This document shows positions 25,097 to 36,925 of a stretch of DNA of 64,000 nt, piece by piece. The translations under genes were made by a program, and so were the position numbers. The notes below the pieces were generated by a model. That model did not search any database and was not told the DNA's origin. It saw only the letters and a list, made by a program, of their open reading frames with translations. The stretch comes from Bradyrhizobium ottawaense (GTDB taxonomy: Bacteria; Pseudomonadota; Alphaproteobacteria; Rhizobiales; Xanthobacteraceae). Each line of letters starts with the position of its first letter. The first letter of the stretch is position 1. The stretch is from positions 5,157,001 through 5,221,000 of the forward strand of contig NZ_LT629693.1 of the NCBI RefSeq assembly GCF_900099825.1, given 5' to 3'.

Positions 25097-26044
25097 CTAA
25101 GCGGCATTTTCAGTCCACGGGGTGCCGCGCTGGACGACGGTATTTGCGTAGATGAGGAGCTTTCGCGCGCAGGCGATTAGCGCTGCGTTGTGGGCCTTGC
25201 CCTTTGCAGTGAGGCGGGCATAGAGGGCGACCAGAGCCTTGTTCCATCGGAAGGCCGCCGGGAGGGCTGCGGCAAACAGTGAGCGCCGCAGCCGGCTGCG
25301 GCCTCCAGCGATTTTGCGCTGACCTCTGTGCTGTCCGCTATCGGCGGCGAACGGAGCCAGCCCGGCCAGGGCTGCGGCTTCTTCACGGCTGACGCAACCG
25401 AGCTCGGGCATGCGGATGACGATCGCCAGCGCTGTGCGTTCGCCGATACCTGGAATGCTCAGCACCAGCTTTAGCCGCTTGGCCAGATCGCCGTGGCCGC
25501 GAAGACGCTTGGCAATGTCGCGTATCTGCGCCGCCTTGCGTGCTTTCAGCCGGGCTATATCGCTGTTGACGATGCGCCGCAGCGCAGGCTCGTCAATGTG
25601 CTCGAGCCGGTTCTTGAACCGCTTGATGTCTTCCTCGATCTGCTCGAGGAAGGTCAGATAATCGGCCAATTCCGTCAACCGCGGATCCGGTGCGATCTCC
25701 GGTGGATCAACCGCTGCAGCGCAGGCTGCGATCAATATCGCGTCGAGTGCATCATTCTTGGCACGGCGCAAATGTACCCGGCCGAAGGCTTTGACCTGTA
25801 GCGGCTGCAGCAACAGCACGATAAAGCCTGCCGCCCGCAGATGCTCTACCACGCCGCGTTCATAGCCGCCCGTCGCTTCGATGCCGACACGCGTCACGCC
25901 GGACTTGGCGAGGCTAGCCACAAGGGACCGCCAGCCAGCTAAATCGTTGGTGACCTGCCAACGTTCGGCCCGGTCGTGAACCGCGATATCGAGTTTAGCT
26001 TTGGACGTATCGATTCCAGCCGTCGTTATGTTAGACTTTGTCAT
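25097..26044 (-). CDS. IS110-family transposase
   Basis: Protein of 315 aa. The N-terminal DEDD RuvC-like catalytic motif is visible: GIDTSKAKLDIAV (Asp), GIEATGGYE (Glu) and KNDALDAILIA (Asp, Asp). The C-terminal Transposase_20 domain has SIPGIGERTALAI and APFAADSGQHRGQRKI with the conserved serine region. IS110 enzymes recombine without classic inverted ends and are guided by a bridge RNA made from the element. ATG 26044 is preferred over an in-frame start 15 codons upstream. It looks intact. Confidence 0.92.
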   Translation of the reverse strand: MTKSNITTAGIDTSKAKLDIAVHDRAERWQVTNDLAGWRSLVASLAKSGVTRVGIEATGGYERGVVEHLRAAGFIVLLLQPLQVKAFGRVHLRRAKNDALDAILIAACAAAVDPPEIAPDPRLTELADYLTFLEQIEEDIKRFKNRLEHIDEPALRRIVNSDIARLKARKAAQIRDIAKRLRGHGDLAKRLKLVLSIPGIGERTALAIVIRMPELGCVSREEAAALAGLAPFAADSGQHRGQRKIAGGRSRLRRSLFAAALPAAFRWNKALVALYARLTAKGKAHNAALIACARKLLIYANTVVQRGTPWTENAA

Positions 26045-26207
26045 CTTCCTCGACCCTGCCTTGTGAAGCGAACCAAGTTGTTCCGGCAACCATCCGGGTC
26101 CGATGAAGGTGCTGACGCGATCAAGCTACGGGGCAGCCACAAACTGCTCTGGGTGGGTTCGATCCGATCGCCAGCGGCCTGCCGCGGGGTGCAAACCGCG
26201 GCAGGCC
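25097..26207 (-). mobile_element. IS110-family insertion sequence (ends not determined)
   Basis: Minimum extent given: the transposase gene plus about 160 bp of structured DNA upstream of it. The element probably ends between the BVMO stop (25077) and 25097 on one side and before the palindrome at 26254 on the other. IS110 elements lack long inverted repeats, so borders cannot be read without comparing copies or an empty site. Confidence 0.55.
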
Positions 26208-29063: not shown

Positions 29064-29179
29064 GGTTCTGATTGAATCAGAACCGGGCTCTACTCTCCTG
29101 GTTTGACGCGCTTTCTTTACGCGAACCGGCGTCCACCCCCGGATCAAGTCCGAGAGCAAGCTTCGCTCGAAAACGCTCT
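29064..29179. repeat. Intergenic repeat, copy 2 (with 10-bp-arm palindrome)
   Basis: Same ordered blocks as at 18291-18424: palindrome GGTTCTGATT-G-AATCAGAACC (29064-29084), GGGCTCTACTCT, TTTGACGCGCTTTCT, GAACCGGCGTCCAC, then TTCGCTCGAAAACGCT. A short CCCGGATCAAGTCCGAGAGC insert separates the last two blocks. It lies just beyond the P450-DyP stop. Confidence 0.75.
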
Positions 29180-32100
29180 ACGTAGGTTGATGAGCGTCTG
29201 CTTCAGTGGCGTTGTTGACAGGCTTTCTCTTAGAGAGGCAAAGCTGAACGAATTCCGCCAGGAACATCAGCGCCGATCGGCCGGGCAGGAAGAAATAGCC
29301 GCCGCCGTGAACCGTCACGAAGCTCTCGCCGCCCGGTAGCGCCAGCGAGCCGGCCGAGGTCGGGATCGTAAATCGCGTCGATGCACCTGATGGCTTCACC
29401 GCCACGATCGGATCGGGTTCGTTGGTCAGCCCGGCGAAGCTGGTAGAGCCCAGCCAAGATTGCTGGATGAATTCGAACTGGCGTTCGAGATCCGCGCATA
29501 GGCCAATGAACAGAAGGCCCTTTTCGCCTTCCTGTTGATAGGATCTGCCACGCCGCAACAGACGATGCCGGTTGGTGATCATCAGTTGCGAATCGTCTCC
29601 CGGCGCCAGGCTGCCGCGGGGATTGGTTCGGCGGATATGCGCGCCGAACGGACAATAGAGACCCTGGGGGTCATCGACCCCGAAGTTCAGGTCGGTATCG
29701 GTCTCTTCGAGAGAGCCGTCATCGTCCTGCGGCGGCGGAACAGGTCCGATCGGACGGACGATCAGCGGCACGCCGTCATGCCAGCGTCCCATCATCTTGG
29801 CTTCCACCCAGTCCCGTGTCACCGCGCCGCCGATCAGGCCGGTTAGCTGATCCGGGTCTCCCAGCGCCATTACGCAACGATCAGCGTAGGCGTGAAATTC
29901 GTCGACATGCTGTTCGAGTTGCCGGATCGCCAGGAAGGTGCCGTTGCGTCCGAAGTCGCGCACTTGCGGACGCGGATCCTGGAAGGCGGAGAAGCGGGTA
30001 TCGCCCGCTGACGGGACCGATCCAAGCCGGTTGCCGGTGTCGCTTTCGCGGGCGACCACGGGCGTTGGCGGATAGTAGCCCTGGTTACTTTGGTAGCCGA
30101 GCAGGAATTCGCCGGGCGCCATGATGTCGCGGGGCTGTTGCGCACCGCTCGCAAAACGCTGGGTGCCGCGTATCACCGGCTGCGAAATGCCGTCGCGGAA
30201 GCCGAAGTGTTCGTAGCTGATGCCCTTTTCGATGTGGTCGGCGCTCTTTTTGGTCGGCTGAGTATTTAACTCGGTGATCGCAAGACCTGCGCCGGTCAGC
30301 GACGAACGATGCAGCTCGAACAGGGTGTCGCATTCCTCCTGCGATTTTCCATAGACAAAAATCGCCGCGTGAACCGCCTTGTCGGGGTCGGCATCCGACC
30401 AGCGCCATGACGACGGTTCGGATGCAGCATAGTCGCCGAGGATGCGCTGTCGCGACGACATTCCAAGATTGAACGCGGTAGGGAATGTCGACAGCGTGTC
30501 GAACCCGCAATCGTTCGATTCCTTGAGGAGGTGGGACAGGCCTGCCGCCGTAAAGGCGACGCAGGTTGCCGAAGGCTCTTCGCCGATCAGCGGCCGGTCG
30601 CCGAACGTGACCTGCAAACGCTCATCCGGCTCCGGATCTCCGGTACCGTGCGGATCCCATGTGCCGGACACCAGCGATGCCAGCCATCTGGCGCAGACAT
30701 TGCGATCGTCGGGCAGGCGGATGGCAGCGAACTTCATATAGGGAAGCCGCTTGAAGCCGCGGAATACGACGGACTGCACCTCCGGGGTCTCAATCACCGT
30801 ATCGGTCTTCGGCATCGAGCCGAAATAGCTGAGCCATGCACGGGCCTGCGAGTCGGTGGTTGCGCGCGCCAGCTCCCAGGAGATTACAGCGTTGTTGCGC
30901 AGCTGATCTGCGGTCAGATGCGAGAAGTGGTGAAACCAGAATTGCGTCGGCTGCTGCTGGCGACGAACCCATCGCTTGAAGCGATCGCCGTCTTGTGCGC
31001 CGCCTTGGACCAGCCATTTGGTGCGCGGAAAACCGACGGCATTGCTCCAGGCCGCGTTCTGGCCCAGATAGGCCTTGGTGACGAAATCCTCGAGATAACT
31101 TTCCCAACTGCCGTCGTAGTTGGAGAGGAACACCAGGCGCTCCGATCCCGGCGGCCGGAACCAGCGCGCGAAATGGATCGTCCCCATGTTGACGATGTAG
31201 CCGGGGCGGAAGGCGCGGCTCACGACGAGTTCGATCCCCCACAGCGCGACGCCGAGCGTGAGCTTCCGGAACCAGCCGGGTTTGAGCGGCGAGACCGACA
31301 GAAAATGATTCTGCTCGCAGTTGGGATCGTTTTCGCGTTTCGCGATCTCGCGAACCTTCGCGAGATTGGGGTCGAGATCTTCCGGCCGGTCAGTGATGTC
31401 GGCCCAATGCAGTCGTGCGGCAAAGGCGCCGACGAGGATGCCGACCAGCGTCGCGGCGCCGATACATCCCGCGACCAGCGAAATGAGGCATTGCCCGATT
31501 GTCGTCAGAAGATGCGCCGGCGCGAACGACAGCGTGAAATCGTACCATATGAAGCATAAAACGCTGACGATGATCGCGATCGCCGCCAGGATAAAGTAGG
31601 TCGGAAACAGCGTTGGTGAGGACAGCACTGCGGCGAGACGGCTATCCGGCTTTGTCCAGCAGAGGGTCGGCGGTTCCTGGCGGCTTGGGATCGTCAGATA
31701 GCGCCTGAAGGCAGGGCCGCGTTCCAGCAGCGACCTTGTTTTTGGATCGTTCATTGCGCGTAGTCTGGGCTTGTCGTGAATGAGGTCGCGAACGAACTGC
31801 AGGGCATTGGTGGCGTGGCTGCCGATACCGGCATGAACCTCCACGAAATGATCGACGGCTTCGCGGCAGAACTTCGCCAGATCGTCCTGTTGCTGGATGC
31901 TTGCTATCGACTGGCCGGGCAAGCCGAAGAAGCACAATCCGGCCGTTCCCCATGGTCGCGCCTTCAGCTTGATCTCGCTGGCTCTCAGCAATTGGCCGAG
32001 CACCGGACCGGTGCTCGCCGGGACGGGAGTGGTGTCGCCGTTCGCAGCCGATCGGAACAGGCTCAGCAGCCACGGGCTGGCAGAGGCATCGACCGCGTCG

Positions 32101-33674
32101 ATCAGCCTGTCGGAAGTCCCGTCGCCATTCACTTCCAGCAGCAGATACGGCGCCGGGGCAATCGGATCGCCAAGATCGATGACGTTGAGCGAAGCGAAAT
32201 GAACGAGGTTCGTGCGCTGGAGTGCGTCACGCATATTTGGTTGTGGTTGCGCGCCAAGATTCTCGATCGCCTGACGCCAGGCGTTGATGTCAGCTTGTGC
32301 GGTAAGCGGCGCCAGCACGGTGACCATGCTCTGGATTTGCGATCCGTAGGCAGGCTTGAACTCCATGTCGAGGCGGCGGGGAAACACGCCGACCCGGTAG
32401 ATCTGTCCCCACTGATCCTTTCTGACGTGCACCGCGTCCCTGGACAGCAGCGATTCGAAGATCGCGGTGATCTGCGCCATCGCCAGCGTCTTGCCGAGGC
32501 AAGCATGAACGCCGGATCCGAACACCAGTTCATAGCCCCTCGACTGGCGGTCGCGCATCGCCGAGGCGGTTGCGACCAGCAAGACCGATCCGGCGGCAAT
32601 CCGGTGTGAGCCCGACGCTGTCGTGACGGTTGCGTCCTGCGCGGCATAGCGCCATTGCCCCGGGTTGAGCGCCGGGTTGAGCCGTGCCGCCTCGAACAGA
32701 AGTTGCTCCAGCCGGTCGCGCGCCGACGGGTCGTCGCTGCTGCGCGCTTGCTTCGCCGCCGCGGCGACCGCATCCAGTCCGTCTGGTTTCCGCAACAGCT
32801 GCTCGAGGATGTTGCCGGCCGCCAGGGTCGTGGTCGGGATGAATCCCGTGATCATGCCGACCATGATGGCGCGAATTTCAGCTGGCGGCGTTCCGGTGTC
32901 GACGAGGCGTTCAAGGATCGTCTTGCCCAGTCCTTCGGTCGGCATTGGCGGGTCGACCGGGAGCCGCGCCATGGCGGCATCGATCACGGATCGTACCCGC
33001 GCTGCCCCGGCAAGGGCGAGCTTGCGGGTCGCGGGCTTGCCGAACGGATCGGCGAACAGCAACGCCGATATCGACATCGACCATTCGGCGAAAGCGTCGG
33101 GGTCGTCGACGCCGAGCCCGAAGAATTCGGCGCAGGTCTCGGACGCCACCCTGGTGATGAGATCCTTCATGACATCGATACGGCCCTCGGACGCATCGAG
33201 CAGCGTATCGGCGATCTGCCGTGTCCGCTGGATCAGCCATTTCGCGTCCTGTTCGCCGATCAGGTCGCGAATAAGGTCATGTTGGCGCTGCTGCTCGACA
33301 CCTTCGAGGCCGAGGACAAACGTTGCGGCACCGCCGCCGAGCTCCTTCATCTCCGGGCCGTACGGCACGCGGAAGATGTCGTGCTTGGCGAGCACGTCGC
33401 GCACGTCGGCGTCGCGGGTGATGATGACCAGCCGGCCGAATTTCGGGATCGGCCAGCATGCCCGGAAGAAAGCGAACGTTACCCGCAACGACCACAGCCA
33501 AAGCCGTCGGAGAACCGGCGACCAGGACCGATCGGCGCCGAGGTCGTTAAAATCGAATTCATCTTCGTCGGATGCGTTCCCGTTCCCGGATATCGCCTGG
33601 GCTGCGGTAATCTTGTCGAAATATTTCAGCGTCCACCCGGCGAATAGTCCCCCTGCCGCCTTCGCGTCCCCCAT
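29178..33674 (-). CDS. Cytochrome P450 / transmembrane / DyP-type peroxidase fusion
   Basis: One open frame of 1498 aa. The P450 part (~60-480) has the helix-K ExxR (EAAR, Glu328-Arg331) and the heme loop FGSGVHACLG with Cys392. Its I-helix reads TGFIPTTT around residues 276-283, with Pro where most P450s have Asp/Glu. After an unassigned region (~480-690), two to three membrane helices lie at ~690-755. A segment with GTIHFARWFRP and SNYDGSWESYLEDF (~830-960) follows. The DyP peroxidase (~965-1485) has GFRDG (Asp1161), the Arg of FLAIRQLEQ and the proximal-His segment FGAHIRRTNPR (His1346). Two heme centres on one membrane protein suggest coupled oxidation of a lipid or hydrophobic substrate. 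GGGGAAG lies before ATG 33674. It sits 34 bp after the interrupted regulator, in the same direction. Confidence 0.9.
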   Translation of the reverse strand: MGDAKAAGGLFAGWTLKYFDKITAAQAISGNGNASDEDEFDFNDLGADRSWSPVLRRLWLWSLRVTFAFFRACWPIPKFGRLVIITRDADVRDVLAKHDIFRVPYGPEMKELGGGAATFVLGLEGVEQQRQHDLIRDLIGEQDAKWLIQRTRQIADTLLDASEGRIDVMKDLITRVASETCAEFFGLGVDDPDAFAEWSMSISALLFADPFGKPATRKLALAGAARVRSVIDAAMARLPVDPPMPTEGLGKTILERLVDTGTPPAEIRAIMVGMITGFIPTTTLAAGNILEQLLRKPDGLDAVAAAAKQARSSDDPSARDRLEQLLFEAARLNPALNPGQWRYAAQDATVTTASGSHRIAAGSVLLVATASAMRDRQSRGYELVFGSGVHACLGKTLAMAQITAIFESLLSRDAVHVRKDQWGQIYRVGVFPRRLDMEFKPAYGSQIQSMVTVLAPLTAQADINAWRQAIENLGAQPQPNMRDALQRTNLVHFASLNVIDLGDPIAPAPYLLLEVNGDGTSDRLIDAVDASASPWLLSLFRSAANGDTTPVPASTGPVLGQLLRASEIKLKARPWGTAGLCFFGLPGQSIASIQQQDDLAKFCREAVDHFVEVHAGIGSHATNALQFVRDLIHDKPRLRAMNDPKTRSLLERGPAFRRYLTIPSRQEPPTLCWTKPDSRLAAVLSSPTLFPTYFILAAIAIIVSVLCFIWYDFTLSFAPAHLLTTIGQCLISLVAGCIGAATLVGILVGAFAARLHWADITDRPEDLDPNLAKVREIAKRENDPNCEQNHFLSVSPLKPGWFRKLTLGVALWGIELVVSRAFRPGYIVNMGTIHFARWFRPPGSERLVFLSNYDGSWESYLEDFVTKAYLGQNAAWSNAVGFPRTKWLVQGGAQDGDRFKRWVRRQQQPTQFWFHHFSHLTADQLRNNAVISWELARATTDSQARAWLSYFGSMPKTDTVIETPEVQSVVFRGFKRLPYMKFAAIRLPDDRNVCARWLASLVSGTWDPHGTGDPEPDERLQVTFGDRPLIGEEPSATCVAFTAAGLSHLLKESNDCGFDTLSTFPTAFNLGMSSRQRILGDYAASEPSSWRWSDADPDKAVHAAIFVYGKSQEECDTLFELHRSSLTGAGLAITELNTQPTKKSADHIEKGISYEHFGFRDGISQPVIRGTQRFASGAQQPRDIMAPGEFLLGYQSNQGYYPPTPVVARESDTGNRLGSVPSAGDTRFSAFQDPRPQVRDFGRNGTFLAIRQLEQHVDEFHAYADRCVMALGDPDQLTGLIGGAVTRDWVEAKMMGRWHDGVPLIVRPIGPVPPPQDDDGSLEETDTDLNFGVDDPQGLYCPFGAHIRRTNPRGSLAPGDDSQLMITNRHRLLRRGRSYQQEGEKGLLFIGLCADLERQFEFIQQSWLGSTSFAGLTNEPDPIVAVKPSGASTRFTIPTSAGSLALPGGESFVTVHGGGYFFLPGRSALMFLAEFVQLCLSKRKPVNNATEADAHQPT

Positions 33675-33708: not shown

Positions 33709-34569
33709 CTAACGTCGTGAATTATTGCCTTCGGTCGCGAGGCGGGTGCGTCCCGCCGAGAGCGAAGCGACCGACTCGACAAACCGATGGTTCACCGAGC
33801 GGTCTTCAAATGGAATCCAGTCAATATACTTGGTCGTAAAGCGCGGCCTGACGGCCCGGAGCTCCTCAAACGCCACCTTGGCCTGCTGCGTTTCGCCCAG
33901 TCTGAAAAGGGCGTCGATCTTGACCATATGGGCGTACCAATATTGTTCCCGCCGGACGATGGCCAGATCCGCATAGGCGATCGCTTCCCGGTAATCCCTG
34001 AGCAGGCTGGACCTCATGGCCAGTTCGCCAAGGACGAAGAACAGATGCACGTCGAACGGACTGAGCCGTCGCGCCAGTTCGAGGTGCCCGCCAGCCTTCT
34101 CATGCCCGCCGGATAGATTCAGGGTGGAGCCGATCTGGGCGTGCGCAATGGCCAGACTCGGCGTCAGTTCGACCGCCTGGTAGAGCAGGTCCAGCGCGGG
34201 TTGCATGTGCCGCAACCAGGTCTCCGCCGTGCCCGCAAGCCAGTAGGCCCGGCCGTCGGACGGATCGGCGCGCATCGAGCGCTGGGCGAGGCCCCGCATT
34301 TCCTGCACCCGATTCCCCGACTCCCGACCGGTCCAGATCGCCCAGGCCAGTCCATGGGTGACGTTGATCAGGGCTTCCGGGGAATGAGGATCGAGTGCAA
34401 GCGCCCTGGCGAACAGCTCCTGCGCCTGATCCGAATCCGCATGATGCAGTCGGTTCAAATGCCAACGACCGCGCCAGAGCAGATCGGTGATGTTCGCGTT
34501 CGACGGCACCCGTTCCCGCGCGCTTGATTGCTCGCCGTGATCGATCTTGGCGCCGAGATGCGCCACTAG
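33709..34569 (-). pseudogene. SARP/TolB/TPR-type transcriptional regulator, 3' half (interrupted by IS701)
   Basis: The C-terminal part of a regulator split by the IS at 34570-36024. It encodes TPR-like repeats (QELFARALALDPHSPEAL, DLLYQAVELTPSLAIAH, GETQQAKVAFEEL). Removing the IS and one CTAG copy restores a single frame with the 5' half: the junction reads CLQEL-VAHLGAKID. The joined gene would encode about 585 aa. The half alone has no natural start or DNA-binding domain. Confidence 0.85.
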
Positions 34570-36024
34570 CACTACTTTGGCAGATTATTGCAATTGATCG
34601 GCGAAACTGGATTCCCGAATCAGATTTTCAATGATTCATGGGTGGTCGGCTTTTGGAGGGCCGACCATGGTGAACACGACACCGAAGTGGGAAGACGAGC
34701 TTGGACGCTGGCTCAAGCCATTCCTGGATCGCTTGGGTCACAAGGCCCGGCGACGGATGTGTCCGCTTTATATCTCGGGACTGATTGGACCAGGCGATCG
34801 CAAGAGCGTCCAGCCGATGGCGGCGCGGCTGGCACCGGGCGACTATGACCAGTTGCATCATTTCATCGCTGATGGTGTCTGGGATGCGGCGCCATTGGAG
34901 TCGGAATTGCTGGTTCAGGCCGATCGCCTCGTTGGCGGCAGTGATGCGGTGCTGGTCATTGACGACACCGCGATGCCGAAGAAGGGCGATCGTTCGGTTG
35001 GTGTGGCTCCTCAATATGCCTCATCTCTCGGCAAGACGGCCAATTGCCAAACGTTGGTGTCGCTGACGCTTGCGCGGGGTGAAGTGCCGGTCATGGTGGC
35101 GTTACGTCTCTTCGTTCCCGAGAGTTGGACGAGCAATCCGGTGCGTTTGAAGCGTGCGGGCGTTCCAGTCGAGCACCGCGCAGCGCGGACCAAGCCAGAG
35201 ATCGCCTTGGCGGAGATCGATCGCGTGATGGCAGCCGGTATGCGCTTTGGCTGCGTGCTGGCGGATGCCGGTTACGGCCTCAGCGCGCCGTTCCGTCAGG
35301 GGCTAACGACACGCGGCCTGGCCTGGGCCGTCGGTATCCCTCGTCACCAGAAGGTTTATCCGGTGGAGGTTAAATTGATCTGGCCGGTCGCCGGTCGAGG
35401 TCGTCCCCGCAAGCGGCACATTCCCGATATCCTGTCGAGGGCAGCCGAAGACATGCTGGCCAATGCTAAGTGGCAAAATGTGAGTTGGCGAAACGGGACC
35501 AAGGGCCGGCTGGAAGCTCGCTTCGCCGCGATTCGCGTGCGGACCGCTGATGGACCTCCGCAGCGGATCAAGGACATGGGCCAGCAGCATCTTCCGGGGG
35601 ACGAAGCCTGGCTTATCGGCGAACACAGGACGTCGGGGGAGAAGAAATATTATCTCGCCAATATGCCGGCCGAGATGAATCTGCGCACGTTAGCTGCCAC
35701 GATCAAAGCTCGATGGATTTGCGAACAGGCCCATCAGCAGTTGAAAGAGGAACTCGGGCTTGATCACTTCGAGGGACGATCCTGGCAGGGCCTTCATCGT
35801 CATGCGCTCATGACCATGATCGCTTACGCATTCCTCCAGCATCGCCGTCTCGCACAAGCGGGGCGGAAAAAAAAGAATCAACGGTCCACCGCCTCAGCCG
35901 AGCCTGCCGGCCGTACGCCAAGCCATCGTCGATCTCATCGTTCAACCACGACCTCAGCGATGCCCGTACTGTAGAAGACAAATCGGCGGAAAGCAGCAGC
36001 GTGAATAAATCTGCCAAAGTAGTG
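34570..36024 (+). mobile_element. IS701-family insertion sequence, complete (1455 bp)
   Basis: Both ends are readable. The 17-bp perfect terminal inverted repeats CACTACTTTGGCAGATT lie at 34570-34586 and, reversed, at 36008-36024. They are flanked by a 4-bp direct repeat CTAG (34566-34569 and 36025-36028), fitting the YTAR target of the IS701 family. The inner bases of the two ends differ (ATTG versus TATTC). The host gene is the SARP-like regulator. The clean duplication and perfect ends suggest a fairly recent insertion. Confidence 0.93.
34667..35974 (+). CDS. IS701-family transposase (frame break near C-terminus)
   Basis: Protein of 435 aa in the uninterrupted frame. The DDE-type elements are visible: VLVIDDTAMPKKGDRSVGV, VLADAGYGLSAPFRQGL, and the late ARWICEQAHQQLKEELGLDHFEGRSW with Glu. 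The start ATG 34667 has TGGAGGG upstream. At an A8 run (35867-35874) the natural C-terminus seems to move to another frame: read as seven A's, it continues INGPPPQPSLPAVRQAIVDL to a Cys-pair end CPYC and stops at 36008, which looks more protein-like than the Ser/Arg-rich tail of the open frame. Confidence 0.88.
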   Translation: MVNTTPKWEDELGRWLKPFLDRLGHKARRRMCPLYISGLIGPGDRKSVQPMAARLAPGDYDQLHHFIADGVWDAAPLESELLVQADRLVGGSDAVLVIDDTAMPKKGDRSVGVAPQYASSLGKTANCQTLVSLTLARGEVPVMVALRLFVPESWTSNPVRLKRAGVPVEHRAARTKPEIALAEIDRVMAAGMRFGCVLADAGYGLSAPFRQGLTTRGLAWAVGIPRHQKVYPVEVKLIWPVAGRGRPRKRHIPDILSRAAEDMLANAKWQNVSWRNGTKGRLEARFAAIRVRTADGPPQRIKDMGQQHLPGDEAWLIGEHRTSGEKKYYLANMPAEMNLRTLAATIKARWICEQAHQQLKEELGLDHFEGRSWQGLHRHALMTMIAYAFLQHRRLAQAGRKKKNQRSTASAEPAGRTPSHRRSHRSTTTSAMPVL

Positions 36025-36925
36025 CTAGCTCCTGCAGACATTCGTCGAACGCGGTCGCAATCACCGATCGGCCGATCTCGATCCGTTTCGACCAGACCGC
36101 CTGAAGCCGCACCGCCTCATAGAGCGTGACGTCGATCCGCATCAGGTCTGCCGCGGTCCGGATCGATCCGTCGAGGAAATATTTGGCGCCGAGCCCTCGC
36201 GCTTCCTGACTGGAGATCGTCGCACCCCGCGGGTCGCCGGAGTCGCCGGCGATCACCGCCAGCCATCGCACGCGCGACAGACGGTTGATCAATTCCTGCT
36301 TGAAGCCCTCGGCAAAATAGGCGTCGTCCGGGTCGCCGGTCAGGTTTGTAAAGCGCAGGATCGCCAGCGAGGGGCCATCGCTTGCGGCCTGTCCCGGCCA
36401 GATCGGGCTGGATACGGAGATGGCGGCCGGGGCCCGCGGCGGTGCGGCCCTGGTCGCAGCGTTATCTGCCGCGGACCTGAGCAGGCGCGCGCGTTGCTCG
36501 CGCAGCCAGTCTTCAAAGGCTTCCTCCCCGGGAATATCGATCCCCTCGAGGAACTCGCCGGACTGACCGGCGCCGTGTGTGCCGGCCTCGTCGTCCGGTT
36601 CGAAAATGTCGACACTGACGATGCTGAGGTCGAGCCGTACCCGGTCCCGCTCGCAGATCAGCGGCGTCCAGGACGGGCGGTTGAGACGCTGGCGCAAGTC
36701 CGACAACTCGCGCCGCAGGCTACCGTTCGCCTCCTTCGGCTCGCGGCTGCCCCACAGTTGGGTCTGGAGCCAGCCGCGGGCCCGCTCGCCGTCCTTGGAA
36801 ACGGCAAGCATTGCAATCAGCGCCGCGCCCTTGCGGCTGGAAATTACAATCCGGCGCCCTTCCGGGTCCACGAAGCTGAATGGACCGAGCAGACGAAGCT
36901 TAAATTTCGACGTCCAAGTCAACAT
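36025..36925 (-). pseudogene. SARP/TolB/TPR-type transcriptional regulator, 5' half (interrupted by IS701)
   Basis: The N-terminal ~300 codons of the split regulator. A winged-helix OmpR/SARP-like DNA-binding domain (LRLLGPFSFVDPEGRRIVISSRKGAALIAML... LRRELSDLRQRL) is followed by a TolB-like region (LAILRFTNLTGDPDDAYFAEGF... LGAKYFLDGSIR). Beyond the IS border the frame runs on into the insertion, adding unrelated residues to a stop at 35954. Its former job was probably to control the P450-DyP gene 34 bp downstream of its stop, possibly also itself. Confidence 0.85.

Follow-up and report, generated by a model that had tools for sequence, protein, structure and literature searches.

A single-chain P450–Mid–DyP protein of Bradyrhizobium ottawaense is the fused form of a three-part bacterial system

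Analysis of the window, the whole 64,000-nucleotide stretch of Bradyrhizobium ottawaense DNA considered here, showed that a single open frame (29178..33674; coordinates written with two dots are on the minus strand unless stated) encodes a 1498-residue protein in which a cytochrome P450, a middle module that we named Mid and a DyP peroxidase follow one another. Comparison with relatives showed that this protein unites in one chain what other phyla carry as separate genes, a three-part system of P450, Mid and DyP. It is a real, conserved variant on the theme of joining a P450 to a peroxidase and, as far as we searched, is undescribed in the open-licence literature. New findings are that the three parts lie side by side as separate genes in Bacteroidota and Actinomycetota, and that a DyP–P450 fusion in reverse order exists. 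Tentatively, and with less than even confidence, we read the protein as a diheme enzyme bound to the membrane, with a P450 that uses up a (hydro)peroxide; it would work in the manner of the fungal linoleate diol synthases, although its peroxidase part is not related to theirs. The evidence for this reading comes mostly from relatives.

The AlphaFold model of the window protein contained both a P450 fold (residues 55-443; 32346..33512) and a DyP fold (residues 955-1479; 29238..30812), and residues 440-955, the Mid module, proved to be more than a plain linker. Within Mid, the model predicted a strand-helix-strand-strand-helix-strand order twice, in a first ferredoxin-like unit (residues 448-583; 31926..32333) and in a well-conserved second one (residues 788-915; 30930..31313). 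Between the units lie long helices (687-710 and 719-761), which we read as membrane helices from the model and from hydropathy (residues 683-756; 31407..31628). The first-pass annotation had asked for a structure prediction and had proposed membrane helices at about 690-755; the prediction resolved the P450, Mid and DyP parts and the helices were present, but the middle is also a two-unit alpha/beta module that elsewhere forms a separate gene. A Pfam scan (E ≤ 1) detected no reductase domain in the chain, unlike in the self-sufficient P450s CYP102 and CYP116B, and no animal-peroxidase (COX-like) domain, the peroxidase part being DyP. The idea that two genes were joined into this frame by assembly or annotation is refuted, and we give this explanation practically no weight: we found no point in its favour, the genome is a single contig, 105 of the 120 homologs listed align to 95% or more of the query length, and the complete fusion recurs in 46 of 102 loci.

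A predicted-protein search scored 7989 candidates, among which 492 relatives were found at E ≤ 1e-10. Matches at E ≤ 1e-100 occurred in 9 of 242 sampled genomes of the window's genus, and the Mid profile was matched at E ≤ 1e-8 in 22 of 299 sampled Pseudomonadota genomes, the window's own genome being included in both counts. Occurrence outside Pseudomonadota rests on the best 80 of 107 relatives from a contig scan, which represent 78 distinct loci. With 24 loci from other searches these make up the 102 loci, which were chosen by similarity, are related and may count some genomes twice; they were classed with home-made profiles on gene calls that were longest-frame picks and missed overlapping genes. 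The 46 loci with P450–Mid–DyP in a single frame answer the first-pass proposal to look for the same architecture in other genomes. Another 20 loci carried a P450 of the family: as a separate gene in 17, in what resemble split fusions in L026 and L044, and in a reversed DyP–P450 fusion in L159, where Pfam matched both domains. At L073 and L143 the separate P450 gene adjoins a Mid–DyP fusion, whereas P450, Mid and DyP are neighbouring genes in Bacteroidota (L076, L078, L079), in Actinomycetota (L082, L084, L088) and in L087, L131 and L133; L160 has its P450 on the opposite strand. Sixteen further loci (Novosphingobium and kin) are not P450-less, as Pfam and phmmer revealed a second, divergent P450 lineage, upstream or fused (15 loci by phmmer, L072 by a Pfam match below the cut-off). 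L162, possibly half-Mid–DyP–P450, has a C-terminal P450 by eye and no Pfam match. With the truncated loci L052, L067, L075 and L161 left out, the resulting table of 98 loci holds 83 with a P450, L162 among them, and 15 without. Because distant relatives carry the three parts as neighbouring genes, P450, Mid and DyP look like one working unit, and this three-part unit is well supported.

The kinship of the P450s was assessed with a profile of the fused ones. This profile scored 145-280 bits against 16 separate neighbour P450s, whereas no other P450 from the window's genome exceeded 68 bits and the best PDB chain reached 108.5 bits; the L143 P450 scored 496 but is itself included in the profile (as L005). 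The P450 of L159 (91 bits) and those of the Novosphingobium type (17-46 bits) scored no better than unrelated P450s, so their kinship rests on position and not on score. Trees were built for 40 loci, comprising 22 of the 46 fused ones and 18 others with an unfused or reverse-fused P450. In the P450 tree, the fused P450s and L143 formed one group with all others, including L159, outside it; in the DyP tree, L073 and L143 fell among the fused ones. The L073 P450 grouped with Actinomycetota, whereas its DyP grouped with the fused proteins. P450 and DyP distances were correlated across the 18 unfused or reverse-fused loci (Mantel r 0.42, p 0.0005) and across all 40 (r 0.59). These results indicate that P450 and DyP have for the most part stayed paired through evolution, apart from one or more apparent swaps (L073).

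In sequence searches, Mid matched described families weakly at best. Pfam gave weak matches for ten Mid members, the best being DUF4131 (E 0.003, in four of the ten); no sequence relative was found in the PDB at E ≤ 1, and the matches listed by a fold search of Mid inside larger models were all P450 or DyP. Five loci (L135, L137, L140, L141, L146) carry paired adjacent half-Mid genes of about 200-390 residues each, and a half-Mid protein profile scored 40 bits against the second unit of the window Mid and 8 bits against the first. The paired genes and the profile fit, and do not prove, the idea that Mid may have arisen by duplication. Mid is an uncharacterised conserved module with its own gene in other bacteria. 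Five proteins of about 540-630 residues (P0122, P0123, P0124, P0134, P0137), which align with 92-98% of the Mid query and for which no Pfam domain was precomputed, are possible products of stand-alone Mid genes. The window's own genome holds two more DyP genes (L144, L145), each adjoining a Mid-like gene, with no P450 found there; in another locus from a genome of this genus, a gene with a RoxA-like cytochrome c domain (L142, 3388-4806) adjoins a DyP/half-Mid pair.

The active sites were compared in an alignment of 36 full-length sequences, the window protein and 35 homologs. The P450 part has the FxxGxHxCxG loop that marks the superfamily, with the heme-ligating Cys392 (FGSGVHACLG; 32499..32501), and the ExxR pair Glu328-Arg331 (32682..32693), each of these residues being present in 36 of 36 rows. 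In a wider alignment of 78 rows, Cys392, Pro280 and Thr281 were invariant and Glu328 and Arg331 nearly so; the fused sequences L021 and L124 lack a complete ExxR. In the DyP part, the proximal His1346 (29637..29639) was found in 36 of 36 rows and the distal Asp1161 of the GxxDG motif (30192..30194) in 35, with one Glu. Arg1375 (RRG..Y; 29550..29552), also in 36 of 36, is the probable distal Arg, a role that we take from the DyP motif. The full P450 heme site and the full DyP that had been read in one frame were thus both confirmed. The DyP domain shares its fold and active-site residues with DyPs of the D. radiodurans and fungal types, of which the solved ones stand alone whereas that of the window is fused. 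DyPs are not known as fatty-acid dioxygenases, which counts against the lipid reading given below.

The I helix of the P450 (TGFIPTT, residues 276-282; 32829..32849) departs from that of O2-activating enzymes, in which an acid–alcohol pair carries protons (PMC9112060, in the text available). Pro280 occupies the usual acid position and Thr281 is kept, both in 36 of 36 rows, and the Pro-Thr combination was found in all 22 fused P450s compared. Among 18 other P450s, Glu/Asp-Thr occurred in seven (L073, L078, L079, L082, L084, L087, L158), Glu-Pro in L076 and L088, Pro-Thr in L139, L140, L141, L143 and L146, and none of these in L131, L133, L159 and L160. The separate P450s of Actinomycetota and Bacteroidota kept the acid in six of six cases, the following Thr being missing in two, so the P450–DyP partnership does not need the loss of the acid. 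P450 peroxygenases, CYP152 among them, also do without the acid–alcohol pair (PMC10988616, available portion). Together with Pro280, this makes a peroxide-driven reaction more likely, although not certain, for the fused enzyme, as judged from its residues. One form that such chemistry could take is a peroxygenase pair, in which both hemes use H2O2, the P450 inserts oxygen and radicals made by the DyP crosslink or polymerise some component of the membrane or cell surface. The proline in place of the acid, the intact DyP active-site residues and the membrane helices suit this explanation, which we nevertheless hold to be rather improbable: where CYP152 peroxygenases would be expected to have an Arg-Pro pair in the I helix, the window protein reads Ile279-Pro280.

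A different explanation, unlikely in our estimate but deserving serious weight, is a conventional P450 monooxygenase served by a separate ferredoxin and reductase, with the DyP removing H2O2 from uncoupling or oxidising a hydrophobic secondary metabolite (terpenoid, steroid or other) again. The invariance of Thr281 (36 of 36) and the acid often kept by separate P450s of the family agree with it; the solved P450s closest in sequence include the erythromycin, mycinamicin and vitamin D hydroxylases, and other parts of the window contain an FMO-like gene (BVMO-like by eye) and a MaoC hydratase. However, no ferredoxin or ferredoxin-reductase family was named among the ten window neighbours scanned, the chain itself has no reductase domain, the acid is missing in 22 of 22 fused P450s, and a catalase-related gene seems to substitute for the P450 in some relatives.

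This catalase-related gene, which seems to replace the P450 at Mid/DyP loci, was present in 8 of 15 untruncated P450-less loci (L129, L130, L134, L135, L136, L138, L145, L163), directly beside Mid/DyP each time, compared with 0 of 83 loci with a P450; it was absent from the other 7 of the 15. Flanks of at least 2 kb on both sides were available for 14 of the 15 and 65 of the 83, and the profile used drew its sequences from seven of the eight loci it detects. If L162 is recounted as P450-less, the count becomes 8 of 16. In a subset of 23 untruncated loci, the gene occurred in 0 of 11 with a P450 (L162 included) and in 8 of 12 without (Fisher p 0.0013), two of the 12 coming from the window's own genome; since the genomes are related, p values serve as a guide only. 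Among the seven of these proteins scanned, Pfam gave a catalase label above cut-off in L135 and L136 only and below it in L138 and L145, and gave no catalase match for the L129, L130 and L134 proteins; the L134 protein alone matched no PDB chain at E ≤ 0.01. Searched against the PDB, a profile of seven of the proteins matched the small protein 3e4w (1.1e-14), catalases and the coral allene oxide synthase 1u5u (3.8e-8). By eye, L129 and L130 have Asn where the distal His is usual. Distant relatives of 1u5u and 3e4w adjoin Mid/DyP where the P450 is missing; proteins of this type are not homologous to P450s, and the bacterial ones are known here from sequence. Fatty-acid hydroperoxides are turned into allene oxides by P450s in plants and by catalase-related proteins in corals. 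One possibility, which we regard as doubtful, is a bacterial pathway of the oxylipin type with a DyP held at the membrane as its core: Mid and DyP would make or handle a lipid hydroperoxide, the second step would fall to a P450 or to the unrelated catalase-related protein, and the window enzyme would be the version in one chain. If true, such a pathway would repeat in bacteria the parallel between plant P450s and coral catalase-related proteins in allene oxide formation.

In the diheme membrane enzyme that we prefer, the Mid helices would anchor the protein at the membrane, leaving the two heme domains on one side, probably that of the cytoplasm, and the alpha/beta units of Mid may bind a hydrophobic substrate or hand it on. 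With peroxide, the DyP domain would oxidise a lipid-like substrate, and the P450 domain, lacking the O2-activation acid and a reductase, would act on a (hydro)peroxide instead of using O2 and NAD(P)H, so that two linked heme steps might give an oxygenated, oxylipin-like product. CYP74, CYP5A1 and CYP8A1 are hydroperoxide-rearranging P450s that use peroxides; like CYP152, they would be expected to differ from the window P450 in the I-helix motif, and they stand alone, whereas the window P450 is fused. Lipid-related genes adjoin several relatives: the order at L141 is half-Mid, half-Mid, DyP, patatin, P450, FadL, a patatin occurs at L159 and an LCAT-like hydrolase at L158, and GST genes lie beside L073, L084, L088 and L146 (by Pfam for L088 and L146). 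These neighbours were selected genes scanned at few loci with no background rate, so the link is suggestive. An animal-type heme peroxidase was noticed by eye near L053 and a distant relative of it near L050. No lipid genes flank the window's copy. The oxylipin-type idea raised in the first-pass annotation has thus gained indirect evidence from relatives (the catalase-related gene in place of the P450, patatin, FadL, GST), but of the ten window neighbour frames compared, those other than the two halves of a split regulator have no counterpart in the 102 loci.

This regulator lies directly upstream of the fusion. Its 5' part (35957..36925) is 44% identical to residues 7-299 of the L031 regulator and has relatives in 40 of 102 loci; its 3' part (33712..34572), with TPR repeats, is 51% identical to residues 299-565 and has relatives in 45 of 102. 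The two are split by an insertion sequence (34566..36028, strand undefined) with terminal inverted repeats, CTAG at both edges and a DDE_5 transposase (34631-35974, plus strand), although the fusion frame itself is intact. Regulators of this family, with TPR repeats by Pfam for L031 and a DNA-binding start by eye, stand immediately upstream, in the same orientation, in 39 of 78 loci, while in the 16 Novosphingobium-type loci their place is taken by a gene of about 1000 residues that by eye encodes a cyclase/AAA/TPR protein. Such neighbours would fit a stress or signalling device, with peroxide or lipid sensed by the heme domains and the signal passed through the conserved upstream regulator. 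We consider this very unlikely, as almost every catalytic residue of the two enzymes is invariant, beyond the need of a sensor, and the regulators may simply control the gene. When the ten window neighbour frames were compared with the 102 loci (blastp, E ≤ 1e-10), relatives were found only for the two regulator halves, and a conserved operon was rejected. A phage or defence role was likewise rejected, with no PHROGs or PADLOC match. An IS110-type transposase (25100-26089) separates the FMO-like gene from the genes that lie downstream of the fusion. In other loci (L054 14316-16846, L031 15638-16231), an S8 peptidase was found by Pfam downstream of the fusion at L054, one of seven loci with that cluster; beside it in the seven loci is a small gene, by eye an anti-sigma factor, and in six of them, also by eye, an ECF sigma factor.

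Like the window protein, the fungal linoleate diol synthases (Ppo; DOX–CYP, CYP6001-6005) combine a heme peroxidase-type domain and a P450 in a single polypeptide. We know of no Mid module in these enzymes or in oomycete CYP5619. The fungal proteins join a heme dioxygenase of the peroxidase-COX superfamily to a reductase-independent P450 that transforms hydroperoxy fatty acids (PMC13049297), and the peroxidase precedes the P450 (PMC5919972; available text in both cases). The window protein has a DyP rather than a COX-like part and an N-terminal P450, so it does differ from Ppo in peroxidase fold and order, as had been claimed; the relative with the peroxidase first is the reverse fusion of L159. 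Oomycete CYP5619 has the P450 first and the heme peroxidase/dioxygenase last (PMC5919972, same portion), which is the order of the window, with a eukaryotic peroxidase/dioxygenase of the fungal DOX kind. The P450–peroxidase fusions in print, as far as the open-licence literature searched extends, are fungal or oomycete and have another peroxidase fold. No P450–DyP fusion was found among the open-licence PMC matches listed, and the words 'fusion', 'fused' and 'peroxidase' are absent from the main text of two surveys of proteobacterial P450s (PMC8197338, PMC9148083). The earlier view that this order of domains is undescribed therefore stands for P450 with DyP among those matches, but P450-first/peroxidase-last is known, with another fold, from CYP5619.

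A bacterial pairing of P450 and DyP, found in two fusion orders and with its parts associated in distant phyla, would have arisen by convergence with these eukaryotic enzymes. A P450–Mid–DyP system would also mean a defined partner for DyPs and, perhaps, a substrate that they meet in the cell.
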